Below, in pieces: positions 48,187 through 64,000 of a stretch of 64,000 nucleotides of DNA (the first letter of the stretch is position 1; the number at the start of each line of letters is the position of its first letter). Below the pieces are notes generated by a model, which worked only from the letters and a program-made list of their open reading frames with translations, was not told the origin of the DNA and made no database searches. The DNA is from Bradyrhizobium icense. GTDB lineage: Bacteria > Pseudomonadota > Alphaproteobacteria > Rhizobiales > Xanthobacteraceae. The DNA is taken from positions 2,480,001 to 2,544,000 of the forward strand of contig NZ_CP016428.1 in assembly GCF_001693385.1 (NCBI RefSeq), written 5' to 3'. The position numbers and the translations under genes are program-made.

Positions 48187-48888
48187 GTGACCGCAACTGC
48201 CCCGCAAATGCGCCTCTTGATCATCGAAGACGACCGCGAGTCCGCCGACTATCTGGTCAAGGCGTTCCGTGAAGTCGGCCATGTCGCCGATCTCGCCAGC
48301 GATGGCGAGGAAGGCCTGTCGATGGCCGAAGGCGGCGATTACGACGTGCTGGTGGTGGATCGCATGCTTCCCAAGCGCGACGGCTTGTCCGTCATCGGCA
48401 GCTTGCGCGAGAAGGGCAATCGTACGCCCGTTCTGATCCTCTCCGCACTTGGCCAGGTCGACGACCGTATCAAGGGCCTGCGCGCCGGCGGTGACGACTA
48501 TCTGCCAAAGCCCTATTCATTTGCCGAATTGCAGGCCCGCGTCGAAGTGCTGTCGCGCCGCAATGTCGGCCCGGCCGAGGAGACCACCTACCGCGTCGGC
48601 GATCTCGAGCTCGATCGTCTTTCTCATCGTGTCGCCCGCGGCAAGGACGAACTGACGCTGCAGCCGCGCGAATTTCGCCTGCTCGAATATCTGATGAAGC
48701 ATGCCGGTCAGGTGGTAACCCGCACCATGCTTCTGGAAAACGTCTGGGATTATCATTTCGATCCGCAGACCAATGTCATCGACGTGCATATTTCGCGGCT
48801 GCGCTCCAAGATCGACAAGGGCTTTGATCGGCCCTTGCTGCACACGATCCGCGGCGCTGGATACATGATCCGTGACGGGATACGTTGA
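48187..48888 (+). CDS. OmpR-family response regulator without adjacent kinase
   Basis: A 233-residue OmpR/PhoB-type regulator. The receiver domain has DD at 15-16, phosphoacceptor Asp58 in VVDRMLPKRDG and the Lys of LPKPYSFAEL. The winged-helix domain (about 135-228) has LEYLMKHAGQVVTRTMLLEN, NVIDVHISRLRSKID and IRGAGYMI. It starts at a GTG. In related genomes a degP-regulator-kinase order is usual, but here no kinase follows: the sequence after the stop turns into low-content, gene-poor DNA within ten bases. The partner may be lost or encoded elsewhere. Confidence 0.9.
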   Translation: MTATAPQMRLLIIEDDRESADYLVKAFREVGHVADLASDGEEGLSMAEGGDYDVLVVDRMLPKRDGLSVIGSLREKGNRTPVLILSALGQVDDRIKGLRAGGDDYLPKPYSFAELQARVEVLSRRNVGPAEETTYRVGDLELDRLSHRVARGKDELTLQPREFRLLEYLMKHAGQVVTRTMLLENVWDYHFDPQTNVIDVHISRLRSKIDKGFDRPLLHTIRGAGYMIRDGIR

Positions 48889-51256: not shown

Positions 51257-52135
51257 CTATGGTCCCATGGTCCTGCCAACTCTAAATCCAAGAGTGTCGA
51301 ACTGAACCTTGCTGTGACGCTTGAACCGGATGGCCGTGCGAACGAGTTCGGTCTCGTTGTGCCAGGATCCTCCTCGAATGACCCGATAGGTTGGATCGCC
51401 GCCCTGAAGCTTGGCCGCGCCATTGGCCGGCGTGCCCTCGTGACTGTCGTGCCAAATGTCCTCGACCCATTCCCAGACGTTCCCTTCCATGTCGTGTAGA
51501 CCAAAGGCGTTCGGCCGAAACGATCCCACCGGGGCAGTCTGCAAGGTCCAAGCGCCGCCGCATCCGCTGCAGTTGGCGTTGCCGATTCCGGGCTCATCTC
51601 CCCACGAGTAAGGTGTCTTTACGCCAGCACGGGCCGCATATTCCCATTCGGCCTCGGTCAGGAGTCGATACTCCTTGCCTGTGAGCCGCGAAAGCCAAGC
51701 CACAAACAGTTTGGCGTCCCCCCAGCTCACATTGATGACGGGCATGTTTCCCCGACCCCATGCGTCCATGACATGGGGGCACGCCGCAGCTGCTACACAG
51801 GCATCCCACTGATCAAAGGTTACCTCGTACTTGGACACGGCAAAGGGTTTTGCGATGGTCGCCTCGTGCCGAGGATGCTCTCCCTTGGTCCGGCCGACAT
51901 CGCCTTCAGGCGAGCCCATGGCGGATTTGCCTGCGGGGATTATCACCATGAGGGGGCAGGCAACCGCGCATTCCCTAAACTCAGAACCGGCTGCACTGGC
52001 GAGATTCTTCTCTTGCTCAATAGTGAGCACTGTCGGCGCAGCCGAGATCGGCAGCACCGTTTCCGCGACGGCTCCGTCGACGCCGCCGCAAGCCTCAAGA
52101 AGGATAAGGCCAAGAAGGAGGTAAAGAGGTCGCAT
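51257..52135 (-). CDS. SUMF1/FGE-sulfatase-domain lipoprotein-like protein
   Basis: A 292-residue exported protein. The N-terminus is a lipoprotein-like or Sec signal (MRPLYLLLGLILLEACGG). The rest is a formylglycine-generating-enzyme-like fold: GSPEGDVGRTKGEHPRHEAT, KYEVTFDQWDACV, MPVINVSWGDAKLFVAWLSR, LTEAEWEYAARAG, NVWEWVEDIW and RVIRGGSWHNETELVRTAIR then DTLGFRVG. At the place where formylglycine-generating enzymes carry the catalytic Cys (GGSW......CRSA), this protein has Val, so it probably does not make formylglycine; relatives serve in ergothioneine synthesis or binding. AGGAGGATC precedes the ATG at 52135. Confidence 0.82.
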   Translation of the reverse strand: MRPLYLLLGLILLEACGGVDGAVAETVLPISAAPTVLTIEQEKNLASAAGSEFRECAVACPLMVIIPAGKSAMGSPEGDVGRTKGEHPRHEATIAKPFAVSKYEVTFDQWDACVAAAACPHVMDAWGRGNMPVINVSWGDAKLFVAWLSRLTGKEYRLLTEAEWEYAARAGVKTPYSWGDEPGIGNANCSGCGGAWTLQTAPVGSFRPNAFGLHDMEGNVWEWVEDIWHDSHEGTPANGAAKLQGGDPTYRVIRGGSWHNETELVRTAIRFKRHSKVQFDTLGFRVGRTMGP

Positions 52136-52210
52136 GCTGATCCTCCTCATAGTAGACGATTCTGGCTTTGATCGTAGTTGAACACCTTCTGATGTGCTGC
52201 GAAGCTTGGC

Positions 52211-52675
52211 TCAGTTCGAAGCTTTTGCGAGCGCGGCCTGCGGCGTATTCCGGAAACTAATGGCCATGCGGTTGTAGGCGTTCATCAGGCTGATTGCGAT
52301 CGTGAGTTCGACGAGCTCGCGCTCGTCGAACGCTGTGCGGGCAGCCTGGTACGCCTCATCCGGCACGTTGGTTTCTGCGACCCGCGTCACCGTCTCGGCC
52401 CATGCCAGCGCGGCGCGCTCGCGCGTGTCAAAGAGGCTGTCAGACTCCCGCCAAGCCTGCAGTAGCGCAAGCCTCTCGATCTTCTCTCCCTTCTTGAGCA
52501 GATCGCGGGTGTGCATGTCGAGGCAGTAGGCGCAATTGTTGATCTGCGAGATCCGCAAGTACACCAGCTCGACCAGCGCCGCAGGAAGTCCGCTCTGCAT
52601 GACGTAACCGTAGACACCACCAAGCGCTTTCACACCCGCCGGTGCAATCTGGTTGTAGTCGAGGCGCTTGGTCAT
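52211..52675 (-). CDS. AhpD/carboxymuconolactone decarboxylase-family protein
   Basis: A 154-residue alkylhydroperoxidase-like protein. The helical bundle carries the redox motif NCAYCLDMHTRDLLKKGEKI (CxxC followed by a His at +4), and the C-terminal half has LAWAETVTRVAETNVPDEAY and LVELTIAISLMNAYNRMAI. AhpD-type proteins reduce peroxides with this CxxC/His; related carboxymuconolactone decarboxylases lack it. The ATG has AAGGAG upstream. It is the last gene of the seven-gene minus-strand run and overlaps the cupin gene by four bases. Confidence 0.88.
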   Translation of the reverse strand: MTKRLDYNQIAPAGVKALGGVYGYVMQSGLPAALVELVYLRISQINNCAYCLDMHTRDLLKKGEKIERLALLQAWRESDSLFDTRERAALAWAETVTRVAETNVPDEAYQAARTAFDERELVELTIAISLMNAYNRMAISFRNTPQAALAKASN

Positions 52676-53115
52676 TTTTTGCTCCTTGATGACGAAACCT
52701 GTTCAACGGACGTCGTCAGTTCCTTATCGTCGGTATCGACGACGAACACCGCTAGCAGCCTGGCGGGCTTGTTCTTGCTCGCATTGCGGCTAACCGGATG
52801 ACGCGAGCCCGGCGTCTCGTAGAAGCTCTCGCCGGCGCGGTAGACTCGCCTGGGTCCATCGTTCACTTGCGACTCGATTTCGCCTGACAGGACGTAGCCG
52901 AAGATGAAGGCGGACTTGGCGTGAACGTGCGATGGTGATGCCCCGCCCGGCTGATAGTCGACAACAAGCGCGATCAGCGACTTGCCGGGAATGTTGGGTA
53001 TGGTCTGCTGAAAGTGCGGCGTGACCGTTTCGCCGACGCCATGGGCGGCGGCAGGCGTCGCCGTGGCGATGGCAAGGGCAGCATACGCCGCACTGAAGAT
53101 GGCTCGCATTTTCAT
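52672..53115 (-). CDS. exported cupin-domain protein
   Basis: A 147-residue protein with a Sec signal peptide (MRAIFSAAYAALAIATATPA, cleaved after AAA) and a single cupin: PGGASPSHVHAKSAFIFGYV (metal-ligand His), VLSGEIESQVNDGPRRVYRA, GESFYETPGSRHPVSRNASK (third His). The metal and the substrate are unknown. GGAG lies upstream of the ATG. It overlaps the AhpD-like gene and follows the DUF417 gene by 57 bases. It is a relative of the exported cupin at 55645. Confidence 0.82.
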   Translation of the reverse strand: MKMRAIFSAAYAALAIATATPAAAHGVGETVTPHFQQTIPNIPGKSLIALVVDYQPGGASPSHVHAKSAFIFGYVLSGEIESQVNDGPRRVYRAGESFYETPGSRHPVSRNASKNKPARLLAVFVVDTDDKELTTSVEQVSSSRSKK

Positions 53116-53172
53116 GATCGTATTCTCCGTGGTTGCATTAGGTGCTGATGCTGTTGGCGGAAGGTGGCCTGC

Positions 53173-53694
53173 TCACCTGCGAACCACAGTCTTCAGCGAG
53201 TCGACGGACACCCAGAAGGAGGCGGCGAACAGGCCGACATCCTTGAGGAGGAACTGACCCGGCGCGACGGTGATCGCGGGTGCCCCGAGTTCCAGCACGA
53301 CGACGCCCGGCGTCGAGATCATGAAGCTGAGTGTCGTAACGAAGAGTCCGGCCGAGAGAAGACCACCGGCTGCGGAGAAGATCGGACTCGCCAATCTGAG
53401 GGCGATCAGCAGCCCGATGCTGAGTTCGAGGAACCCGAGGAAGGTGGAGAAGCCGCGGGCCGAAAACAGCGCGTAGAACCAGCTCAGCAGGGGGCTGTTC
53501 TCCACGAGCGGCACCAGGCCTTGTGCCTCGTAGTCGGTGAATTTCATTCCACCGAACCAGGCGTAGATGATCGCGAGCGAGGCGTATAAGCCAAACCGGC
53601 TGAGTGGTTCGGCGTAAACGAGGACTTGCCCCGCTTGATCGCGCCAACCGGCAATAGCGACTGGCGTTGAGACCGGGATATTGAAGAGTGACAT
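53173..53694 (-). CDS. DUF417 (YkgB-type) membrane protein
   Basis: A 173-residue inner-membrane protein with about four helices: RFGLYASLAIIYAWFGGMKF (the family GMKF.. motif with DYEAQGLVPLVENSPLLSWF next), FLGFLELSIGLLIALRLASP, FSAAGGLLSAGLFVTTLSFM and LKDVGLFAASFW. YkgB-like proteins are often linked to reactive chlorine or quinone stress and sit next to redox genes. GGAGG lies five bases before the ATG at 53694; the longer frame at 53718 has none. It is in the middle of the operon. Confidence 0.85.
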   Translation of the reverse strand: MSLFNIPVSTPVAIAGWRDQAGQVLVYAEPLSRFGLYASLAIIYAWFGGMKFTDYEAQGLVPLVENSPLLSWFYALFSARGFSTFLGFLELSIGLLIALRLASPIFSAAGGLLSAGLFVTTLSFMISTPGVVVLELGAPAITVAPGQFLLKDVGLFAASFWVSVDSLKTVVRR

Positions 53695-53721
53695 GGTAGC
53701 CTCCGTATTGTTGGACATGCG

Positions 53722-54528
53722 TTACGCCGCAGCCACGGCTCGATATCGCGCCGGAACTGAGCTGAGGGAAAGGTTTGGCATGAGCTTCTGCCGCGCCGCT
53801 TCGTAGTTGGCCCAGTCCGCCGCATCTGGAAGCGACGGAATGGTGACGACTTCACCTTGGTCGAAGCCGGCGAGCGCCGCGTCCACGAGGTCATCCGACC
53901 TCATGACGGTGTTGGACGCCAGATTATCGACGGCGCCGCCGGCTGCGTCCCAGAAATTGGTCGCTGTTGCGCCGGGCAGCACGGTCTGGATACGCACGTT
54001 CTTGTCAGCCAGTTCCTTCTGAAGCGACTGGCCCAGGGCGAGCACGAACGCTTTCGTTCCGCCATAGACGCCATTCAGGACTTCCGGCGCAATGGCAACC
54101 ACTGAGGCAATGTTGATGATTGCGCCGCCTCCGCGGGCAACGAGCGCGGGAGCCGCGGCATAGGTAAGCCGCATCAGCGCCGTCACGTTGAGATCGACCA
54201 TCTCCTCCATGGCATCGACGTCGGACTGCAACAGCGGCTCGAGGCCGCCGACGCCTGCGTTGTTGACCAGCATGGTAATGTCGGGGTCCGTGGCGATGAT
54301 CGTCTCGATCCGCTTCAGGTCCGCCTTGTTTCTCAGGTCCGCGACGACGGTCTTGACGGCACGGCCCGTGGCGTCAGCAAGGCGCGTCGCCAGCTGGTCG
54401 AGCCGGGCCTCGTTGCGTGCGACGAGAACGAGGTCGTAACCCCGGCGAGCCAGCCGGTCGGCATAAACCGCACCGATCCCGGCGGAGGCGCCTGTAATGA
54501 CTGCGACACCTTTGAGAGAGACGGACAT
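53722..54528 (-). CDS. short-chain dehydrogenase/reductase
   Basis: A 268-residue classical SDR. The NAD(P)-binding motif is GASAGIGAVYADRLARRGYD then LVLVARNEARLDQLA (Arg suggests NADP preference); NNAGVGG, the catalytic Ser/Tyr/Lys in NIASVVA and YGGTKAFVLAL are all present. The C-terminal end ATNFWDAAGG and GEVVTIPSLPD is of the type often seen in quinone or dehydrogenase SDRs of unknown substrate. AAGGAG lies upstream of the ATG at 54528. Confidence 0.88.
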   Translation of the reverse strand: MSVSLKGVAVITGASAGIGAVYADRLARRGYDLVLVARNEARLDQLATRLADATGRAVKTVVADLRNKADLKRIETIIATDPDITMLVNNAGVGGLEPLLQSDVDAMEEMVDLNVTALMRLTYAAAPALVARGGGAIINIASVVAIAPEVLNGVYGGTKAFVLALGQSLQKELADKNVRIQTVLPGATATNFWDAAGGAVDNLASNTVMRSDDLVDAALAGFDQGEVVTIPSLPDAADWANYEAARQKLMPNLSLSSVPARYRAVAAA

Positions 54529-54584
54529 TGCACTTCTCCTTGTTTGCGCCACTGGCGCGTTGGGTTTGATACTTCTGGGTTCAT

Positions 54585-55592
54585 CTACCGAAATGCGGCG
54601 CGAACCTCTTCGATGGTCTGTTGGGGATTCTGGAGATGAGGGTAGTGCCCGATGTCGGGAAGGAGCGTCAGCTCAGCGCCAATCCTGCCCGCGAGTTCGA
54701 TCCCCATCTCCTTCTTGATGTAGAGATCCTTCTCGCCCCACACGACCTTTACCGGGATTGCAAGTTGCTCCAGATGCGATTCAAAGTGGTTCTGGTCCCG
54801 CGTAAAGTGCGCGTAGTAGCGCGAGAAGGCATCCGCTGTCGTGATCCCGCCGTGATCCCAGGCGCGCGACATGTCGTCCTTGAATTCGCGCGGCACATCG
54901 AACTGTGCTTCCTTCGGCAGGCCTCTTCTGAACGCGTTCTCCAGGATGTCGTCGCGATTCCTGTTCAGCTGCTCACGGGCATGGCCCATCGAGGGTCCAG
55001 CCTTCAGGCTCTGCAAGCTCGCGTACATGTATTGAGGCCTGTCGAAGGGAGCGAAATCGCCGACGATGATCGACGTCGCGATGCCGGGCTTCTCCTGGGC
55101 CAGGAGAAGAGCCGGCAGAGCTCCGATGTCAGTCGCGTAGATCGTAAGCTTGGATGTGTTGATACCCGTCTTGCGTATGTAGTCGTTCAAGACGCGTGCG
55201 TAGTCCCTCGGGGCGTACGAAAACTTGTCGGTCTTCGGCCTCGAGGAAAACCCGAAGCCGGGCCAGTCGAAAGCGTGAACTTCGTAGTCGGCGGCGAGGG
55301 TAAGAGAAATATCTTTCCACGCGTACAGCGTTTCCGGAAATCCATGCAGGAATAGAACGGTCCCCTTCGGGTTCGCGTTGTGGACCACCATTCTCCGGAG
55401 CGTGATGTCCTCATCGATCTCGAGGAAGCCGATGTCGACCTTCTGTTCCTGTCCAAACAGAGCTTGGGCGTGTGCTGGCGCAGCGAAAGAGCCGGCGACT
55501 GGAGCGCCGAGCCATGTCGCCGTCGCGACCGCTATCGCTACGCCGCGGTGGTATCGGCGGCGAAGGTCGATTCTCTTCGAGAAATTGATCAT
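54585..55592 (-). CDS. exported alpha/beta hydrolase (epoxide-hydrolase/dehalogenase-like)
   Basis: A 335-residue protein with a long N-terminal signal (GVAIAVATATWLGAPVAGSF then AAPAHAQA). The alpha/beta fold begins GTVLFLHGFPETLYAWKDIS (HGFPE is the oxyanion motif), with the nucleophile Asp in IYATDIGALPALLLAQE, a lid region, VVWGEKDLYI (acid) and the catalytic His in LPDIGHYPHLQNPQ. The HGFPE...DIG...GH pattern is that of epoxide hydrolases and haloalkane dehalogenases (Asp nucleophile). GGGAG lies six bases upstream of the ATG. It is the third gene of the operon. Confidence 0.85.
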   Translation of the reverse strand: MINFSKRIDLRRRYHRGVAIAVATATWLGAPVAGSFAAPAHAQALFGQEQKVDIGFLEIDEDITLRRMVVHNANPKGTVLFLHGFPETLYAWKDISLTLAADYEVHAFDWPGFGFSSRPKTDKFSYAPRDYARVLNDYIRKTGINTSKLTIYATDIGALPALLLAQEKPGIATSIIVGDFAPFDRPQYMYASLQSLKAGPSMGHAREQLNRNRDDILENAFRRGLPKEAQFDVPREFKDDMSRAWDHGGITTADAFSRYYAHFTRDQNHFESHLEQLAIPVKVVWGEKDLYIKKEMGIELAGRIGAELTLLPDIGHYPHLQNPQQTIEEVRAAFR

Positions 55593-55644
55593 TTCGGTCT
55601 CCCAAATTCAAATTTCGTGAGCGTCGCTGGCCTTGCTGATCTGT

Positions 55645-56058
55645 TCACTCGCTCAGCATGAGGAGCGGCTTGCCTTTCTCGACGATGTAGGTAGCCAACT
55701 CGGCCGCCTTGACAGAGCCGACGTTCTTCACCGCGTGCGGCGTTCCGTGCGGAATGAAGAGCACTTCGCCGGCCTTGACGGTCAGCGGCGGCCTGCCGTC
55801 GAGCCGATATTCCAAGGCGCCTTCGGTGACGTAGACAAGTTCTTCGCCGGGATGCGAGTGCCTGACCGCGCTCACGCCCGGGCCGAACTCAACGAGAACC
55901 TGGATTACCTCACGTCCGGCTGCACTGAGATCGTTGCGCAGCAGGTTGGTGCGCTTGATGTCGCCCAGACTGACTTCGTGGGCGCGCGCCACGGGCAAGG
56001 TCGAACCGTTGGCAACGAGAAGCGCCGCAGCGGCGACGATGATGCGAAGGGTTTTCAT
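55645..56058 (-). CDS. exported cupin-domain protein
   Basis: A 137-residue exported cupin. The signal peptide (IIVAAAALLVANGSTLPVARA) is followed by one cupin domain: SAVRHSHPGEELVYVTEGAL (two His plus Glu ligands), EYRLDGRPPLTVKAGEVLFI and PHGTPHAVKNVG. This is the usual 3-His-1-Glu metal site, so a metal-bound periplasmic protein is likely. A GAGGATAAC site precedes the ATG. It lies 52-55 bases from both neighbours, on the same strand. Confidence 0.85.
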   Translation of the reverse strand: MKTLRIIVAAAALLVANGSTLPVARAHEVSLGDIKRTNLLRNDLSAAGREVIQVLVEFGPGVSAVRHSHPGEELVYVTEGALEYRLDGRPPLTVKAGEVLFIPHGTPHAVKNVGSVKAAELATYIVEKGKPLLMLSE

Positions 56059-56113
56059 GGATGTTATCCTCGTTCAGGGTTGATGGGCTGCAGAGAGTTG
56101 AGGTCTGTTCAGG

Positions 56114-57415
56114 TCAATGTTGACGTAGCGGCCGAAACGCCGCGGCGACTTCCCGGGAGAATAGTTCGGGCTGTTCCCACGCAGCGAAGTGTCCGCCCTT
56201 GTCGGCCTCGTTAAAGTAGATGAGGTTGCGATAGGCGCGCCGGGCCCAGCTCTCCGGAGCGCGATACACTTCGCCCGGGAAGACGGTGATCGCGACAGGA
56301 ACCGAGATTTCGGTTGTCTTCTGCGCGGCGGAGAGAATGACGCTCTGACCCGCCGTCTCCCAGTAAATGCGAGCAGATGAAACAGCTGTGTTCGTCAGCC
56401 AATACAGCGTGACGTCGTCCAGCATCTCGTCGCGCGTGAGCAGGCGAAGCGGCTCCGCGTTGTTGTAATCGAACATCCAGGCCACCAGCCCCGCGGGAGA
56501 ATCGGTCAGCGCGTAGCCGATGGTCTGCGGCCGCGTTCCCATCATTGCGGCGTAGGCCCGATACTTCTTGTAGAAGATTGAGAGGGCGTCGAACGCGGCA
56601 CGCTCCTTGGCCGAGAGATCCTGCGGAGCAGGCGCCCCGGTAGCGAGCAGCGCCGCGATCTCGGATGGCACGGCCGCCGGCAGGTTGATATGAATACCCA
56701 GCAATCCTGCAGGAGCCTGTCGTGCCATCGCGCTTGAGATCGGCGCTCCCCAGTCGCCGCCCTGGGCGACGTAGCGGCGGTAGCCGAGGCGGTTCATCAG
56801 TTCTGCCCAGGCTCGTGCGATTCGCTCCGGCCCCCACCCCGTGCCTTTGGGCTTGCCGGAAAAGCCGAACCCGGGGATCGATGGCAAGACTAGGTGGAAC
56901 GCGTCTTCAGCGCTCCCGCCGTGGCTCGTCGGATCGGTCAGAGGACCGACTGTCTTGAGCAGTTCGAACACTGAGCCTGGCCAGCCGTGCGTCATGATGA
57001 GAGGAAGTGCGTTCGCATGATGTGAGCGGACGTGGATGAAGTGAATATCGACGCCGTCGATCGTCGTTACGAACTGCGGCAGCGCATTGAGCCTGGCTTC
57101 GGCCTTGCGCCAGTCGTATTCAGTGCCCCAGTAGTGCACGAGTTCGCTGAACGGAACGAGCTGCAGGCCTTGCGACCCGTCATCAACTGTTTCGCGGTCG
57201 GGCAAGCGTGTCGCAGCAACGCGCCGGCGCAGGTCAACCAGTGCCTCTTCGGGGAAGCTGACGCGAAACGGACGGATTACTTCGTTCGAATCAGCCAGCG
57301 CGCGGTGAAGAGGAACGAGTCCAGCCGTGCCGGCAATCGCGATGCCCATCGCAGCGCTTTTCAGCAGTGCGCGCCGATCCTGGTCGATGACTTCGGAAAC
57401 CTGCAGCCTGTGCAT
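56114..57415 (-). CDS. Tat-exported epoxide hydrolase
   Basis: A 433-residue epoxide hydrolase of the EHN type. The signal DRRALLKSAAMGIAIAGTAG has the twin arginines in place. The N-terminal EHN region (RPFRVSFPEEALVDLRRRVA, with VHYWGTEYDWRKAEARLNAL) is followed by the hydrolase fold: LPLIMTHGWPGSVFELLKTV (oxyanion HGWPGS), nucleophile Asp in YVAQGGDWGAPISSAMARQA and the His of EADKGGHFAAWEQPE. It hydrolyses epoxides to diols. The ATG at 57415 has GGAG six bases upstream. It is first gene of the operon and has the GTTA array 87 bases upstream. Confidence 0.88.
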   Translation of the reverse strand: MHRLQVSEVIDQDRRALLKSAAMGIAIAGTAGLVPLHRALADSNEVIRPFRVSFPEEALVDLRRRVAATRLPDRETVDDGSQGLQLVPFSELVHYWGTEYDWRKAEARLNALPQFVTTIDGVDIHFIHVRSHHANALPLIMTHGWPGSVFELLKTVGPLTDPTSHGGSAEDAFHLVLPSIPGFGFSGKPKGTGWGPERIARAWAELMNRLGYRRYVAQGGDWGAPISSAMARQAPAGLLGIHINLPAAVPSEIAALLATGAPAPQDLSAKERAAFDALSIFYKKYRAYAAMMGTRPQTIGYALTDSPAGLVAWMFDYNNAEPLRLLTRDEMLDDVTLYWLTNTAVSSARIYWETAGQSVILSAAQKTTEISVPVAITVFPGEVYRAPESWARRAYRNLIYFNEADKGGHFAAWEQPELFSREVAAAFRPLRQH

Positions 57416-57847
57416 CTTGCTCTCCGTTGCCTGAGCGGGTCGACAATCTGGCTCGCGCACCGCTTGGTGGCTTGAATGTCGCCGGAGAACCGCAAGATTG
57501 CTCGTTAGGTGTTGTTAAGCGCTGTTACTGGTTGGTTACGTTGAAGGAATTGGCCGTGCGGCAATCACATGGATCCACGACCAGGCCAGCGAAACCTGAG
57601 TATGTTTGATTGTGACAATTTGCCCGGATCAGCGCTTTTCGAACCGCCTTATTCGTCCACTGCAGTCTTTACACGGCGCAAGAAGTGCGGCTAAGCCTCT
57701 GATCGCAAAGCCCTTCCAGCAACGATGTTGCAATGGCACAGATCGCGGCCATTTTCTGCTGTTCTTCTCGAAGGAAATAGAAACTGGATGGCGGCGGACG
57801 CGGTATAGTAATTCTCGCCGGCCAGCCATCGACAAAGGTGAGCGCAT
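57416..57847. other. divergent promoter region
   Basis: 432 bases without a gene between the epoxide hydrolase operon (minus) and the regulator (plus). It contains the GTTA array at 57504-57538. I see no other repeat or gene. Confidence 0.5.
57504..57538 (+). promoter_or_regulatory. GTTA phased array A, epoxide-hydrolase operon
   Basis: GTTA begins at 57504, 57514, 57524 and 57535: four tetramers with 10, 10 and 11 bp spacing on the plus strand. Its first half, cgttaggtgttgttaagcg, is almost identical to the arrays at 61532 and, inverted, 61691. It lies 87 bases before the epoxide-hydrolase ATG and about 310 bases before the regulator start. Direct repeats one helical turn apart fit an OmpR-type winged helix bound as a head-to-tail oligomer. 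Confidence 0.6.
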
Positions 57848-60742
57848 GTGACCGGGCTTGAAACAACGAGCAGTTCTAGCGCGAATCCCGTGAGGGCACC
57901 GCAGGAGACCGAAACAGTCTCTTTCGGACCTTTCTTCCTTCACGACAAGACGCGGCTGCTTGAAAGGGATGGGCAGCCGGTCAAGCTGGGCAGTCGGGCG
58001 CTGGATATCCTGCGGCTGTTGGTCAGCCGCGCTGGCGACGTCGTATCGAAGAACGAGCTGTTGGCCCACGCGTGGCCGGGCCTTGCAGTCGAAGAGATCA
58101 GTTTGCGCGTGCATATCGCCGAGCTTCGCAAGGCGCTCGGTGAGGGCAAGGAGGGGGCGCGCTATATCACGAATATACCGAGCCGTGGTTATTGCTTCGT
58201 CGCACCGGTGCACCGCATCGGACACGCGCCCCCGGCGGTTTCGCCTCCTGAGCAGGCGCCGAGCATCCCTGAGGCTCCTATGCCAGTCCTACCTCCCCGC
58301 CTGGAGCGGATGATCGGGAGGGATGACGTTGTGCGGGAGGTGGCGGAGCGGTTGCTGACCGAACGCTTCGTCACGTTCAGGGGCCCTGGTGGAATCGGAA
58401 AGACCACCGTTGCGATCGCGCTGGCCCACGAGCTCTCAGCACAATTCGACGGCCGGGTTCGCTTTCTCGACTTCAGCATGGTGAAGGATGCCGCGCTTGT
58501 CGCCGGCACGATCGCATGGGCTCTTGGGCTCGTCGTGCAGCATTCTGACCCGACGGACAGCATCGTCGGTTACCTGCGCAACCGCCGCCTGCTGCTGGTG
58601 CTCGACAGTTGCGATCATGTCGTCGAGGCCATCGCCGGGGTGGCAGAGCGTATCCACCAGCAGGCGCCCGGTGTCAGCATCCTCGTCACCAGCCGTGAGT
58701 CGCTGCTGGCGGAAGGCGAGCAGATTTTCGAGCTCGGTCCGCTTGAGGGGCCCCCGCAGGGTGCGGGGCTGAACGCAAGCGAGATGCTGGCTTATCCGGC
58801 TGCGCGCCTGTTCACGGAGCGGGCCGCCGCGGCGGGCCATCGCGCGGAAATTGCCGACGAAGACGCCGAAGTTCTCGCCGAAATATGCAGCAAGCTCGAC
58901 GGTATTGCGTTGGCGATCGAACTCGCCGCCGTACGGGTGGGTACGCATGGATTGCGCGAGCTGGTGACACTGCTCGACGGCCGGCTGAAGCTGGAGTGGC
59001 GCGGCCGGCGGACAGCGCCGCCGCGCCATCAAACGCTCGGTGCCACGCTGGACTGGAGCTATGGTCTGATCAGCGAGAGCGAGCGGATAGTCCTGCGTCG
59101 CCTTGCCATCTTTGCCGCCCCCTTCACGTTGCAGGGCGCGACCATGGTCGCGGGCGAGGAGGGCGATCCGGCCGAGCGCATTGTGGAATCGTTGGAGCAG
59201 CTCGTTGCCAAGTCGCTGATTTCAGTGCGCCCTGACGGCGCCGTGACGCGCTATCGGCTTCTTGACACTACCAGGGCTTATGCGACGCAGAAGCTCGCCG
59301 ACAGCGGTGAAGCCACGAGTATCGCGCGCCGCCATGCGCGCTATGTCCAGCACGCGCTGGAGACGACGGCGGCAGACGCGGACGCTGGCGACCAGGCTTT
59401 GCGTTCGCGCGCTCGGACGGTGCTGTTTTCCGACGCGCGTGCGGCGCTGAAATGGGCGTTCGCCAATGATGAGGGCGCTGGACTGCGCGTGCCGCTGGCC
59501 GGCGCCTGCGCGAGGCTGTTCCTTGAGCTCAACCTGCTGGACGAAGGACGTCTATGGTCGAGCCGCGCGCTCACGATGCTCGACAGTTCGACCCGCGGCA
59601 GCGCGTGGGAACTGGAGCTGCAGGCAACGCTCGGACACGCCTTCATGTTCACCGAGCGCAACAGCGATCAGGCTGAAACGGCGCTGCGGCGTGGTCTTGA
59701 GATCGCTGAAGCCCTCGGCGATGGCGCCAGCAAATTCAAGCTGCTGGCGCGGCTGAATATGTTCTATCGCAGGACAGGCGATTACAGGCTTTTGTTGCCG
59801 CTTGCCCTCGAAGCCGAACGGACAGCACAGGCCATCGGAGATCCGGCAGGAATTGCCGGCGGCAAAGGCTTAGTCGGCGTTTCCTTTCACCTCATAGGCG
59901 ACCAGCGCGCGGCGCAGTTGCATCTTGAGGAGGGTGTTGCGGGCAGTGAAGCTCTGCGCAGCATGCAGCCGGGCCATTTTGCTTATTCGAGGACGCCGCA
60001 GATCCCACTCGCTCGCGTGCTTTGGTTGCGAGGCTTCCCCGATCGGGCTGTCGAGTGCGCCCGGCCCTTGACGGGGGCAGCCGCGCCGCGGGACGCCGTA
60101 ATGTACTGCATTTCGCTTTGTTGGTCAGCCTCGCTTTACGGATGGGTCGGCGACTGGTCTTCGGTTGAACAAATGAGCGCTCGCCTTTCGGCTCATGCCG
60201 CTAGCCACGCGCTGGCACCTTATCAGGCAGTGGCGGCCGGCTTTCGCGCGCAGACGATGATCGCGCGCGGTGAAGTCAAGGAAGGGATCGAACTGCTGCG
60301 CGCGGTGCTGCCACGGCTGCATGCGGACCGCTACGAACTGTATGCCTCCGCTTTCAATGCCGAGCTTTCGCAGGGCTTGGCCGAATTGGGCCAACCGGCG
60401 GAGGGGCTTCGCGTCCTGCACGAGGCAATCGCTCGCATCGAGCCGGCCGGCGAAGCTTTCGACGCCCCGGAGCTTCTGCGCCTGCGCGGTGAACTCGAGG
60501 CGCGCGGCGGTGACGCGAAGGCAGCGGGAGCAAGCTTCGTGGCCTCTATCGCGCTGGCCGAGGAGCAGGGCGCGCTGTCGTGGCGGCTGCGAACGGAGAC
60601 ATCGCTGGCCCGCCTTCGACGCAAGCAACGCAGGGCGAAGCCGCTGGACGGACTGGCCGAGACCTACGCCCGCTTCACGGAAGGGTTCGAAACAGCCGAT
60701 CTGAAGGCCGCACGCGAACTGCTGGACGAGGCCACAAAGTAG
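57848..60742 (+). CDS. winged-helix transcriptional regulator with NTPase and TPR-like C-terminus
   Basis: A 964-residue cytoplasmic regulator. An OmpR-type DNA-binding domain at about 24-120 (VSFGPFFLHDKTRLLERDGQ, GSRALDILRLLVSRAGDVVS, EISLRVHIAELRKALGEGKE, RYITNIPSRGYCFV) is followed by a STAND-type NTPase: P-loop GPGGIGKTTVAIALA near 180 and Walker B LLLVLDSCDHVVEA near 250, with ILVTSRESLLAEGE (sensor). The last 450 residues are helical TPR-like repeats. Without a receiver domain it must be activated by ligand and ATP binding. It starts at a GTG with AAAGGTGA upstream. It is divergent from the operon at 52211-57415 and flanked by a second set of target-like genes, all with GTTA arrays. 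Confidence 0.9.
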   Translation: MTGLETTSSSSANPVRAPQETETVSFGPFFLHDKTRLLERDGQPVKLGSRALDILRLLVSRAGDVVSKNELLAHAWPGLAVEEISLRVHIAELRKALGEGKEGARYITNIPSRGYCFVAPVHRIGHAPPAVSPPEQAPSIPEAPMPVLPPRLERMIGRDDVVREVAERLLTERFVTFRGPGGIGKTTVAIALAHELSAQFDGRVRFLDFSMVKDAALVAGTIAWALGLVVQHSDPTDSIVGYLRNRRLLLVLDSCDHVVEAIAGVAERIHQQAPGVSILVTSRESLLAEGEQIFELGPLEGPPQGAGLNASEMLAYPAARLFTERAAAAGHRAEIADEDAEVLAEICSKLDGIALAIELAAVRVGTHGLRELVTLLDGRLKLEWRGRRTAPPRHQTLGATLDWSYGLISESERIVLRRLAIFAAPFTLQGATMVAGEEGDPAERIVESLEQLVAKSLISVRPDGAVTRYRLLDTTRAYATQKLADSGEATSIARRHARYVQHALETTAADADAGDQALRSRARTVLFSDARAALKWAFANDEGAGLRVPLAGACARLFLELNLLDEGRLWSSRALTMLDSSTRGSAWELELQATLGHAFMFTERNSDQAETALRRGLEIAEALGDGASKFKLLARLNMFYRRTGDYRLLLPLALEAERTAQAIGDPAGIAGGKGLVGVSFHLIGDQRAAQLHLEEGVAGSEALRSMQPGHFAYSRTPQIPLARVLWLRGFPDRAVECARPLTGAAAPRDAVMYCISLCWSASLYGWVGDWSSVEQMSARLSAHAASHALAPYQAVAAGFRAQTMIARGEVKEGIELLRAVLPRLHADRYELYASAFNAELSQGLAELGQPAEGLRVLHEAIARIEPAGEAFDAPELLRLRGELEARGGDAKAAGASFVASIALAEEQGALSWRLRTETSLARLRRKQRRAKPLDGLAETYARFTEGFETADLKAARELLDEATK

Positions 60743-60750
60743 CTGCTGCC

Positions 60751-61467
60751 TCAGCCGAAGCGGAAGTCGGAGAGGTCGATCGACACCATCAGCGTATCGA
60801 GCATCGGCTTCAGATCACCAGCGCGCAGATAAGCCCTGCGCCGGGTCGGAATCCTGATGCCGTCCACATTCACGTGGTCGGATACGTACTGCGCCGCGGG
60901 GAAGCTGCCGGCGATATCCACGTGGTAGTCGTGCCGGCGGATGAGCATGTCCTCGCCGAAATAGAAGTCTTGCTCAAAGCTGTGGCTGGCGATTGCCGAA
61001 GGAAAACTGGCCCTCAAGCCGCGCCAGGTCTCCGCTCCCTCTCGCCATGGCTCGATTTCCTCGACATTGAACCCATCCGTGGCGAGCAGGAAGGGTGTGG
61101 TGAGGTAAGTCCAGAGCGCATATCCGTTGAAATATGCGCGGTGCAGCGGATCCCAGCTCGTCCGCAGGTCGTGCCGCGCAAACGAGGCACGGGGATTGGA
61201 TCGTTCGGCGACCACGCTGCCGTCGGCTGCAAGAATGGCAATGCGATCGGATGTGAAGTCGGTATGCCGGTCTTTTCCGAATGGCGCAACCGAGGCCCAT
61301 TGCCGATGCAGCTCGACCTGCATAGTCCGCGCGATCGGATCCTGCGGGACGCCCTTGAGGGCCCAAAGGTCGCCGCCGCTGACGATGGTTGCGGTGAGCG
61401 TGTGGTGTGATTTCCAGCGGTCCAGGCCTCCGTGGGCCTCGATCGCGTCGGCGAGCAGCGGAATCAT
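60751..61467 (-). CDS. conserved protein of unknown function
   Basis: A 238-residue protein I do not recognise. It opens MIPLLADAIEAHGGLDRWKS, then a beta-rich body (TLTATIVSGGDLWALKGVPQ, RHTDFTSDRIAILAADGSVV) and ends near LDTLMVSIDLSDFRFG. The alternating strands with short helices recall LolA-like or lipocalin-like folds, but no motif proves it. No signal peptide is seen. The start at 61467 has AAAGGA six bases upstream. It lies between the regulator and the hydrolase and has its own GTTA array 64 bases upstream, so it is likely part of the same regulon. Confidence 0.75.
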   Translation of the reverse strand: MIPLLADAIEAHGGLDRWKSHHTLTATIVSGGDLWALKGVPQDPIARTMQVELHRQWASVAPFGKDRHTDFTSDRIAILAADGSVVAERSNPRASFARHDLRTSWDPLHRAYFNGYALWTYLTTPFLLATDGFNVEEIEPWREGAETWRGLRASFPSAIASHSFEQDFYFGEDMLIRRHDYHVDIAGSFPAAQYVSDHVNVDGIRIPTRRRAYLRAGDLKPMLDTLMVSIDLSDFRFG

Positions 61468-61531
61468 TTCAAGTCCTTTCGTTGTTCGTCCTGGTGCCGA
61501 CAGACAATTGCGCAAAAGCCTCCAGATGGCC

Positions 61532-61556
61532 CGTTAGGTGTTGTTAAACGGCGTTG
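61532..61556 (+). promoter_or_regulatory. GTTA phased array B, before the unknown gene
   Basis: GTTA at 61533 and 61543 followed by GTTG at 61553 (10-bp period). The core cgttaggtgttgttaaacg differs from array A at one base in 19. It lies 64 bases upstream of the gene at 60751-61467 (minus), in the same relative orientation as array A to its gene. Confidence 0.6.
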
Positions 61557-61690
61557 GAGGGCGGAAGAGGCAACAAAATCCTTGTGTCTCAATGTCTTGG
61601 CTGGGTGCGCCCGCGCAAGGTTTCGGGCCGCCAGGGCGAACCATCGGGCTGCATGACCGGCGCGCAATTTCCATTGCGGCGAAGCCGCGC

Positions 61691-61715
61691 TGACAACGTC
61701 TAACAACGCTTAACG
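61691..61715 (-). promoter_or_regulatory. GTTA phased array C, before the hydrolase
   Basis: On the minus strand: cgttaagcgttgttagacg then ttgtca, giving GTTA, GTTA and GTCA at a 10-bp period. It lies 85 bases before the plus-strand hydrolase at 61801. Relative to its gene it has the same orientation as arrays A and B. Confidence 0.58.
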
Positions 61716-61800
61716 GGCCAACGTCCCTGACCGGGTGCATACCGCTTCCACACGAGGCCGACGTCCTTCGAAAGACGACGCCGCAAACGGGAGCACGACC

Positions 61801-62853
61801 ATGCACAAGGACGTCAACCAGACTCGCCGCGAGTTCATCGGTGCCGCTGCTTCGCTCGCGACCGGCATTGCCTTGACCCGTCCCGCAGCCGCGCACCTGA
61901 GCCAGGTCGCCGAAGCCGCAGATGCAACGACACGGACGCCGGCGATCAGTGCGTCTCTGGGGAATCTGAAGCAGATCAACGCCGGCCTTCTGAACGTAGG
62001 ATATACCGACAACGGTCTCGAGAGGGGGCCAGCCATCCTCCTGCTGCACGGCTGGCCTTACGACATCGACAGCTTTGCTGAAGTCGTGCCGCTCCTGACC
62101 ACCCAGGGTTACCGCGTCATTGTGCCGTATCTGCGCGGCTATGGAACGACCCGCTTTCTTTCCGATGCAAGCGCCCGCAACGCCCAGCCTTCGGCGTTGG
62201 CAGCGGACATGATCGCTCTGATGGATGCGCTTAAGATCGAGAAGGCAGTCGTCGGTGGCTTCGACTGGGGCGCGCGGACCGCCAACATCATGGCTGTGCT
62301 CTGGCCGGAGCGCGTCAGCGCGATGGTCTCCGTCAGCGGATATCTGATCGGCAACCAGCAGGCGGGCAAAGTGCCGCTGTCGCCGAAAGCCGAGCTCGAG
62401 TGGTGGTACCAATTCTATTTTGCCACCGAGCGCGGTCGCATCGGCTACGAAAAGCACCGCCTCGAGTTCGCGAAGCTGATCTGGAAGCTTGGATCGCCGA
62501 AGTGGAACTTCGACGATGCCACCTTCGAGCGCAGCGCGACGGCCTTCGACAATCCCGATCATGTTGCGATCGTGATCCACAATTATCGCTGGCGGCTTGG
62601 ATTGGTCGACGGCGAAGCGGCCTACGACGAACTCGAAGCGCAGCTCGCGCTGGCGCCGACCATCGGTGTGCCGACCATCACCATGGAAGGCGACGCCAAC
62701 GGCGCCCCGCATCCGGATCCCGCCGCGTACGCCAAGAAGTTCACCGGCAAGTACGCGCACCGGCACATCACCGGCGGCATCGGCCACAATCTTCCCCAGG
62801 AAGCGCCGGGCGCGTTCGCACAGGCCATTCTCGACGTCGCCGCGCAAGTGTGA
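61801..62853 (+). CDS. Tat-exported alpha/beta hydrolase
   Basis: A 350-residue hydrolase. The N-terminus carries the twin-arginine signal QTRREFIGAAASLATGIALT. The alpha/beta fold has GPAILLLHGWPYDIDSFAEV (oxyanion HGWP), nucleophile Asp in VVGGFDWGARTANIMAVLWP and the catalytic His in HRHITGGIGHNLPQEAPGAF. The Asp nucleophile suggests an epoxide or haloalkane type of chemistry. GGGAG lies upstream of the ATG at 61801; the longer frame at 61735 has no such site. It is the first gene of a plus-strand run (hydrolase, VOC, FMN reductase). Confidence 0.88.
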   Translation: MHKDVNQTRREFIGAAASLATGIALTRPAAAHLSQVAEAADATTRTPAISASLGNLKQINAGLLNVGYTDNGLERGPAILLLHGWPYDIDSFAEVVPLLTTQGYRVIVPYLRGYGTTRFLSDASARNAQPSALAADMIALMDALKIEKAVVGGFDWGARTANIMAVLWPERVSAMVSVSGYLIGNQQAGKVPLSPKAELEWWYQFYFATERGRIGYEKHRLEFAKLIWKLGSPKWNFDDATFERSATAFDNPDHVAIVIHNYRWRLGLVDGEAAYDELEAQLALAPTIGVPTITMEGDANGAPHPDPAAYAKKFTGKYAHRHITGGIGHNLPQEAPGAFAQAILDVAAQV

Positions 62854-62895
62854 TCGCGGCGCCGGTATTCACCAGGCACACAACAGGAGAGAACC

Positions 62896-63561
62896 ATGAC
62901 AGTAGCAGTCAACCCCGCCAAGGTCCGCTCGACGGACATGAAGTTCGAGCTCGCCGTTATCCCGGTCTCGGATGTTGCGCACGCCAAGGAGTTCTATGCG
63001 AACCTTGGTTGGCGTTTTGACGCCGAATTCACCAACGGCAGCGACTTCCACATTATCCAGTTCACGCCGCCGGGCTCCGGCGCCTCGGTGATCTTCGGCA
63101 AGAACGTCACGCCGGCCAAGCCGGGCTCTGCCCAGGGCCTGTACCTGATCGTGTCCGACATCGAAGCCGCCCGGAAGGAACTGCTTGCGCGTGGCGTCAA
63201 GGTCAGCGAGGTGTTCCACGGCGGCGACAACGTCCACACCGGTACCGACGAGCCCTACCTGTTCGGAAGCGTCCGGGTCACTGGCCCGGATCCGCAACGC
63301 CGTACGTACCACTCGTTTGCGTCGTTCAGCGATCCGGACGGCAATGGCTGGGTGCTGCAGGAGGTTACCAACCGTCTTCCCGGCCGCGTCGAGGGTGACA
63401 CGACTTTCGCGTCGGTATCCGACCTCGCGGCGACGCTTCGCCGCGCGGCGGCAGCGCACGGCGAGCATGAGAAGCTGACCGGCGAACACGACGTGAACTG
63501 GCCGGACTGGTACGCGGAGTACATCGTCAACGAGCAGGCGGGCAAGCCGCTGCCGAAGTAG
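62896..63561 (+). CDS. VOC-superfamily (glyoxalase-fold) protein
   Basis: A 221-residue protein with a VOC/glyoxalase-type fold near residues 17-150: MKFELAVIPVSDVAHAKEFY, NLGWRFDAEF, FTPPGSGASVIFGKNV, LYLIVSDIEAARKELLARGV and FSDPDGNGWVLQEV (the metal-ligand Glu of the last strand). A 60-residue helical tail follows. VOC proteins include glyoxalases, dioxygenases and fosfomycin-type resistance proteins; the substrate is not visible. AGGAGAG precedes the ATG. It lies 42 bases after the hydrolase and 72 before the FMN reductase. Confidence 0.85.
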   Translation: MTVAVNPAKVRSTDMKFELAVIPVSDVAHAKEFYANLGWRFDAEFTNGSDFHIIQFTPPGSGASVIFGKNVTPAKPGSAQGLYLIVSDIEAARKELLARGVKVSEVFHGGDNVHTGTDEPYLFGSVRVTGPDPQRRTYHSFASFSDPDGNGWVLQEVTNRLPGRVEGDTTFASVSDLAATLRRAAAAHGEHEKLTGEHDVNWPDWYAEYIVNEQAGKPLPK

Positions 63562-63633
63562 CCATCATCAGGTGCGGTCCGCCATTAGCCGGCGAACCGC
63601 ACCTTCAGAATCCAGTCTGCGGAGTAACTCCCC

Positions 63634-64000
63634 ATGAGCAACCGAATCCTCGTTTTCTACGGCTCCTATCGTTCCGACCGGGTGGGTATCCGGCTTGCCG
63701 AATACGTTGTCGACCAGCTGCGCCGCCGAGGCGACGACGCCGAGTTGATCGACGCCAAAGCGATCAACCTTCCGATTCTCGACCGCATGTACAAGGAATA
63801 CCCGAAGGGCCAGGCGCCGGCGGCGCTCGAGCAGCTCGCAGGGAAGATCAAGTCGGCGGACGGCTTCATCTTCGTCACCGGAGAATACAACTGGGGCGTT
63901 CAGCCCGGATTGAAGAACCTCACCGACCACTTCCTGGAGGAGTGGTTCTGGCGACCCGCGGCGATTGTCAGCTATTCGGCCGGGCGACTGGCCGGAGCGC
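63634..64000 (+). CDS. NADPH-dependent FMN reductase-like flavoprotein (truncated by window)
   Basis: The N-terminal 122 residues of a flavodoxin-like NAD(P)H:FMN reductase, cut off by the window edge. It begins MSNRILVFYGSYRSDRVGIR (the SYR phosphate-binding loop), followed by LAEYVVDQLRRRGDDAELID, LPILDRMYKEYPKG, SADGFIFVTGEYNWGVQPGL (the conserved T.EYN loop that contacts flavin) and KNLTDHF. GGAG lies upstream of the ATG. As the third gene of the plus-strand run it would supply reduced flavin or act on quinone-like compounds. Confidence 0.85.
   Translation, partial: MSNRILVFYGSYRSDRVGIRLAEYVVDQLRRRGDDAELIDAKAINLPILDRMYKEYPKGQAPAALEQLAGKIKSADGFIFVTGEYNWGVQPGLKNLTDHFLEEWFWRPAAIVSYSAGRLAGA

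Follow-up and report, generated by a model that had tools for sequence, protein, structure and literature searches.

PhoB/OmpR response regulators use a Trans_reg_C winged helix and bind tandem direct repeats, head to tail and near the -35 element. A winged helix of the same type stands N-terminally in CadC, ToxR and HilA, of which CadC and ToxR are membrane receptors; no NB-ARC domain is known to us in them. MalT-like STAND activators couple a STAND ATPase to a DNA-binding domain, in their case a C-terminal LuxR-type helix-turn-helix that recognises another kind of operator. The system described here lies in a stretch of 64,000 nucleotides from Bradyrhizobium icense (the window; positions 2480001-2544000 of the 8.3-Mb chromosome, with named near relatives that are mostly Bradyrhizobium) and comprises three phased arrays of direct repeats that precede genes around a single large regulator. 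This regulator shares its winged helix with the PhoB/OmpR proteins and with CadC, ToxR and HilA. Unlike the PhoB/OmpR proteins, it gave no match to the Response_reg receiver domain and carries a STAND ATPase and TPR-like parts instead, and in coupling such an ATPase to a DNA-binding domain it resembles the MalT-like activators.

Both conserved domains of the regulator were matched (Trans_reg_C, E-value 2.7e-15; NB-ARC, 2.5e-8, above the model cut-off), which bears out an earlier note on this DNA that had recognised a STAND-type winged-helix regulator from the letters alone. The mark of a STAND NTPase, an NB-ARC P-loop ATPase with a GxGGxGKT-type loop, was found in the window regulator, and the loop residues G179, G181, G182, G184 and K185 are invariant in 22 sequences. 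A profile of 22 homologues matched ToxR, CadC and OmpR chains with its winged helix, AfsR and plant NLR chains with its ATPase, and TPR chains in its C-terminal half (positions about 585-680). TPR models matched the homologues at L208 and L217 and gave no match in the window regulator itself. The best PDB sequence matches of the winged helix were ToxR and CadC, and the CadC and HilA models stayed below their cut-offs. A comparison of recognition-helix and wing residues by eye settled no specificity residue.

The closest described plan is that of AfsR and the large SARPs of Streptomyces, which (PMC10936776, PMC10972967) have the N-terminal OmpR-type winged helix, the NB-ARC/NOD part and the TPR part in the same order as the window regulator. 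The former describes two 11-bp direct repeats for AfsR, centred at -29.5, and SARP promoters with 11- or 22-bp repeats whose 3' repeat lies 8 bp from the -10 element; the latter defines a large SARP by a BTAD adjoining the DNA-binding domain and notes a 10-bp repeat in a secondary PimR operator. As with AfsR, the putative binding sites in the window are direct repeats one helical turn apart at promoters poor in both -35 and -10. Measured against these systems the differences are several. The BTAD model of Pfam gave no match at E-values up to 1 in three family members, and NB-ARC begins about 40 residues past the winged helix in the window regulator. The repeats have 10-bp rather than 11-bp units and number two to four, the proximal pair is predicted to be centred near -39.5 rather than -29.5, the last unit ends 17 bp rather than 8 bp before the predicted -10, and the genes are of detoxification type rather than antibiotic clusters. 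By these two features, the BTAD and the SARP repeat spacing, the regulator is not a SARP, and the best reading of its sequence is a protein that is AfsR-like, or a class II activator, in plan.

Phased arrays and their promoter frame

The earlier note had placed phased GTTA arrays at three promoters, and this claim held. All four matches to GTTA-N6-GTTA in the window lie inside the three named sites (A, B and C; Table 1); dinucleotide shuffles of the window average 0.13 matches and never exceed 2. On the forward strand, site A has GTTA at 57504, 57514, 57524 and 57535 (periods of 10, 10 and 11) and site B has GTTA at 61533 and 61543 followed by GTTG at 61553; on its coding strand, site C reads TGAC at 61691 and TAAC at 61701 and 61711. 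The sites themselves were thus correctly located, with the first GTTA of site B one base later than the 61532 given before. The uniform orientation of the arrays relative to their own genes was likewise seen for all three. A 19-base core was said to differ at one to three positions, which is right for A and B (one) and for B and C (three) and too low for A and C (four). Distances from array to ATG of 88 (A), 65 (B) and 86 nt (C) agree roughly with the 64-87 bp claimed, the exact range being slightly off.

Read on the coding strand, the array unit is TNAC-AACnnC, 10 bp long and present in two to four copies. We aligned 35 arrays taken from around regulators, sites A, B and C among them, and numbered them from the T of the proximal TAAC as position 0. 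A hexamer RNGCCA directly abuts the proximal TAAC at +4 to +9, and further downstream an A at +28 is kept in 34 of 35 arrays and a T at +32 in 32 of 35. A -10 element, YANNNT, is predicted at +27 to +32; as 17 bp separate it from the hexamer, RNGCCA falls in the place of a -35. The exception at A+28, L064, fits the frame if its proximal unit is taken to be an AAAC one unit on, a choice made by eye with which the matrix described below agrees. If the predicted -10 is set at -12 to -7, the two proximal units (-10 to +9 of the alignment) have the centre given above, and arithmetic from the frame puts the transcription starts near 57468, 61497 and 61750. These predicted starts would favour the ATG codons at 61467 and 61801 over longer open reading frames. 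In sequence, and with starts that are predicted, the arrangement would match class II activator geometry, in which a site adjoins the -35 at a fixed distance. This predicted -35/-10 frame at a fixed distance from the array is an addition to the earlier note.

All aligned arrays but L064 (34 of 35) went into an operator matrix, so that sites A, B and C belong to its training set; genome-wide searches used sequence patterns, and the matrix was applied to fetched stretches. GTTA-N6-GTTA has 26 matches in the genome. The 22 outside the three sites, none of them used in training, score 4.6 or less, compared with 32.7-43.0 for the three (training) sites, and the A28/T32 pair is present at one of the 22. 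Occurrence at random across the genome, which would have counted against the earlier note, was thus not seen.

The frame was also assessed on 20 held-out target families, unrelated to the families used for training, with one best match per family. A28 was present in 19 and A28 together with T32 in 15 (binomial P 3e-17), where one of the 20, the L064 family, had been among the 35 arrays in which the frame was first noticed and the promoters of the OsmC family had been inspected beforehand. Any other offset from 12 to 57 was found in at most 2 of the 20 families. Outside Bradyrhizobium, 18 of 21 regulator loci were used, since L200 (an Afipia metagenome-assembled genome, MAG), L211 and L254 (labelled Frankia sp. 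RB7) were too near Bradyrhizobium loci; arrays occur in all three of these. Scored without its -10 columns, the matrix gave 14 matches above 8 in 10 of the 18 loci, compared with 0-2 in each of ten Markov resamplings. A28 and T32 accompany 10 of the 14 (binomial P 3e-12), the matches not all being independent because the Variovorax loci are interrelated, and in three the pair lies one base on (+29). At a threshold of 5 there were 17 matches in 13 of 18 loci, 11 of them with A28 and T32 (resamplings 1-8); at a threshold of 10, half of the loci (9/18) had no match.

Over all collections the matrix found 267 matches above 10 across 139 loci (40 + 20 + 79). A same-strand gene start lies 40-260 nt downstream of 240 of them, and a single match falls within a called gene. 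The matches precede 30 target-gene clusters, of which at least two are fragments of larger families. The arrays are real, conserved promoter elements.

Arrays beside regulator homologues

Arrays stand beside regulator homologues in Bradyrhizobium and several other genera. Homologues of 89% identity (G021), of 68-69% (G008, G005 and G011) and many of 43-50% adjoin arrays that precede one set of families, namely the 238-residue protein, epoxide hydrolase, a/b hydrolase, VOC and DJ-1/PfpI. The motif is therefore conserved before orthologous operons, the lack of which would have counted against the earlier note, and is found before unrelated ones next to regulator homologues as well. In 40 regions around regulator homologues, the window's own included, GTTA-N6-GTTA occurs 47 times in 15 regions; 25 regions are without it and 16 without a matrix match.

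We searched 36 genomes of the genus (G000-G035) for the full pattern, which is TAAC-N6-TAAC-RNGC together with the -10 bases. A close regulator was defined by a best match of E 1e-80 or better, a cut-off chosen after the E-values were known. Of the 25 genomes that have a close regulator, 17 contain the full pattern; of the 11 with weaker matches, none does (Fisher P about 1.3e-4, uncorrected for phylogeny). The pattern totalled 46 matches in these 36 genomes, compared with 12 for the reversed control counted over the same 36, and it occurs in 141 of 265 genus genomes. Three one-mismatch matches in the B. icense genome, at 2062581, 4576647 and 6696668, were put down to chance: secretion/pilus-type genes (labelled by eye) surround the first, and the last has a matrix score of -6.3.

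The motif also varies with the regulator. One paralogue clade lacks TAAC-N6-TAAC; ahead of divergent OsmC/hydrolase genes, and keeping to the 10-bp frame, it has TCAC-AACTTC-TCAC-AACTCC-CAAC-GGG or a near variant. Seven of 10 aligned regions show this array, and no such array was seen in the aligned stretch of the other three. Matrix matches of the OsmC family all keep A28 (5/5). Variovorax arrays have TGAC as middle unit, and one of them, in L208, precedes a SnoaL-like gene, a kind that serves as an array target in L064 as well. In a gammaproteobacterial MAG (L231:12600), three TAAC units with a 10-bp period lie near a regulator homologue and gave no matrix match. Two to four STAND winged-helix paralogues adjoin one another within 20 kb in L061, L063, L080 and L096, which suggests family expansion.

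Several results weigh against a general pairing of regulator, array and frame. Of 119 loci centred on a regulator, 39 gave no matrix match above 10, including L062, whose regulator is 50% identical. When these 39 were searched with a looser three-unit pattern, five right-frame matches appeared in four loci, each of them lying between genes and ahead of one; the twelve other offsets (-6 to +6) gave 0-2 matches each and one upstream case in total. Eight of the 25 regulator-bearing genomes lack the full pattern. A looser pattern, GTTA-N4-TT-GTTA, fails to tell the two groups of genomes apart by its presence: the 11 without a close regulator have 0-3 matches each, and 8 of them have 1-3. Single matches of this kind are mostly chance, since the reversed control is equally common or commoner. 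T+32 is missing in promoter C, in the OsmC family (0/5) and in the HlyD-type family (0/4). Several paralogous regulators use one core motif and G000 alone holds 12 regulator-matching stretches, so that the pairing of regulator and array is not unique. Mapped on the regulator tree, the presence of an array within 4 kb takes 3 changes, compared with 4.8 on average in shuffles (as low in 9 of 500); the clustering is weak, in part because paralogues lie side by side. Raw counts, finally, overstate independence, since many loci are orthologous or stem from overlapping collections, in which a G-numbered and a named locus can be one strain.

Proposed mode of action and alternatives

We consider it probable that the arrays mark an activator-dependent (class-II-type) stress or detoxification regulon of the neighbouring STAND regulator, whose binding, activation and signal we infer. 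Several copies of the regulator would bind an array head to tail on a single face of the DNA, one per 10-bp unit. As the proximal unit abuts the weak -35 (RNGCCA), the proximal protomer could contact RNA polymerase, through sigma region 4 or the alpha-CTD, in the manner of class II activators, and the bound regulator would open the promoter, which is poor and has its -10 (YANNNT) at a fixed spacing. The TPR/STAND part may sense the signal, perhaps an electrophile or a product of oxidant stress, and thereby turn on the hydrolases, VOC protein, flavin reductase and cupins, together with an efflux pump just past the window. An electrophile or oxidant is our first guess from the predicted targets (epoxide hydrolase, OsmC, DJ-1/PfpI, AhpC/TSA-type, VOC, flavin reductase and efflux proteins).

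The same geometry might serve a repressor, with an oligomer on the array occluding the -35-like element that it abuts until a signal releases it. This is unlikely, since the predicted -10 and start are found downstream of the arrays rather than beneath them, and since a weak, uniform -35 with a fixed distance from array to -10 is what activator-dependent promoters are expected to have. That another OmpR-type protein or a trans-acting factor binds the arrays, the STAND regulator being a mere neighbour, appears a shade less likely again. The earlier claim that no other DNA-binding protein is encoded nearby does not hold: a second OmpR-type gene (Response_reg and Trans_reg_C) lies at 48208-48888, about 9 kb from the arrays, and response regulators of this type do bind tandem direct repeats. 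Moreover, 11 of 98 array loci have no STAND regulator in the fetched stretch and would need a factor acting in trans. Against this, a gene similar to the 48208 response regulator was found in 5 of the 98 loci, a count without selection bias (one is the window's own, and the listed relatives are 29-35% identical), compared with a STAND homologue in 87 of 98, a figure biased by the choice of most loci through that homologue; and congeners without a close STAND homologue were all without the full pattern (0/11). Very probably, the protein that acts on the arrays is the NLR-like regulator next to them.

Phased repeats can bend DNA, and the arrays might act as structural DNA (a bend or an UP-like element) or within the transcript, with no dedicated regulator. 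We hold this to be very improbable: the repeats are no A-tracts, the arrays lie upstream of the predicted start, their presence follows the regulator, and the motif variant accompanies the regulator clade. The near identity of the A and B cores might speak for chance clustering or for recent duplication of a single promoter, an explanation that is hardly credible because the frame recurs before some 30 target-gene clusters and in held-out families, with flanks that differ.

Beyond a STAND-regulated activation of these genes, a tentative and rather doubtful extension is that a large family of NLR-like bacterial activators has a common operator-promoter code, in which a signal-driven STAND oligomer docks on the array, the number of 10-bp units (two to four) reads its size, and paralogues of one genome are told apart, or cross-talk, by small changes of the unit (TAAC, TCAC or TGAC). 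If true, an immune-receptor-like assembly would be loaded onto DNA as a transcription switch. Several full-length winged-helix/STAND homologues occur in many Bradyrhizobium genomes and also in other proteobacterial genera, and no report of a DNA target for a proteobacterial member was found among the matches listed in a literature search. For this poorly known regulator family the arrays may offer a first testable DNA code, and the proposed combination of units and fixed -10 would permit target lists to be computed for direct testing.

Target genes and neighbouring features

The run behind operator A encodes an epoxide hydrolase (EHN), a cupin, an a/b hydrolase, an SDR, a DUF417 protein (its RclC-like label is below the NCBIfam cut-off), a cupin-like protein (a weak match), a CMD/AhpD-like protein and a PvdO/FGE-like protein. 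The 238-residue family behind operator B has the most array matches of any target family (59); its profile found no match among solved structures (PDB) at E-values up to 1. A relative of 44% identity lies beside the regulator in Azospirillum (L217). The FMN reductase gene of the operator C run extends past the window end.

Table 1 Features of the regulator locus in the window
Feature	Position	Strand	Basis or detail
Operator A, four phased TAAC units before the epoxide-hydrolase operon	57504..57538	-	matrix score 39.6
Operator B, phased CAAC, TAAC, TAAC before the uncharacterised 238-residue gene	61533..61556	-	matrix score 32.7
Operator C, phased TGAC, TAAC, TAAC before the hydrolase-VOC-FMN reductase run	61691..61714	+	matrix score 43.0
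-35-like GAGCAA, promoter A, right after the proximal TAAC	57498..57503	-	sequence; conserved columns
Predicted -10 GACATT, promoter A, 27 nt past the T of the proximal TAAC	57475..57480	-	frame
Predicted -10 AATTGT, promoter B	61504..61509	-	frame
Predicted -10 CATACC, promoter C (A+28 kept, T+32 not)	61738..61743	+	frame
Regulator, 964 residues	57848..60742	+	Trans_reg_C 42-117; NB-ARC/STAND ATPase 159-288; TPR-like C-terminal half
Eight-gene run behind operator A	51257..57415	-	gaps 3-75 nt, one 4-nt overlap
238-residue protein behind operator B	60751..61467	-	no Pfam or NCBIfam family
Run behind operator C	61801..63999	+	a/b hydrolase 61801-62853; VOC 62896-63561; NADPH-dependent FMN reductase from 63634

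The earlier note had taken the three promoters for a complete regulon. A regulon in essence is what the arrays suggest; it is not complete within the window, as a fourth array, CAAC-TCAC-TAAC, lies 356 bp past the window end (window-equivalent position 64356; L078:16357), before an HlyD-type gene (Pfam) and then an RND-type pump gene (labelled by eye). The same HlyD/RND-type array design was seen in L057 and L171.

Elsewhere in the genus, arrays away from any regulator in the fetched stretch precede genes for a MOSC/flavin-reductase protein with an AhpC/TSA-type partner (L162, L165, L168, L175, L178), for a molybdopterin sulfite-oxidase-like protein with a DUF302 protein (L163, L169, L179) and for epoxide hydrolases (L164, L176); among these loci, Pfam was run on L178 and L179. 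A HisKA_2/HWE kinase-like gene (L058:18031-18699) and its relatives are a further target, with 39 array matches in the family, and this kinase-like protein may feed signals back to the system.

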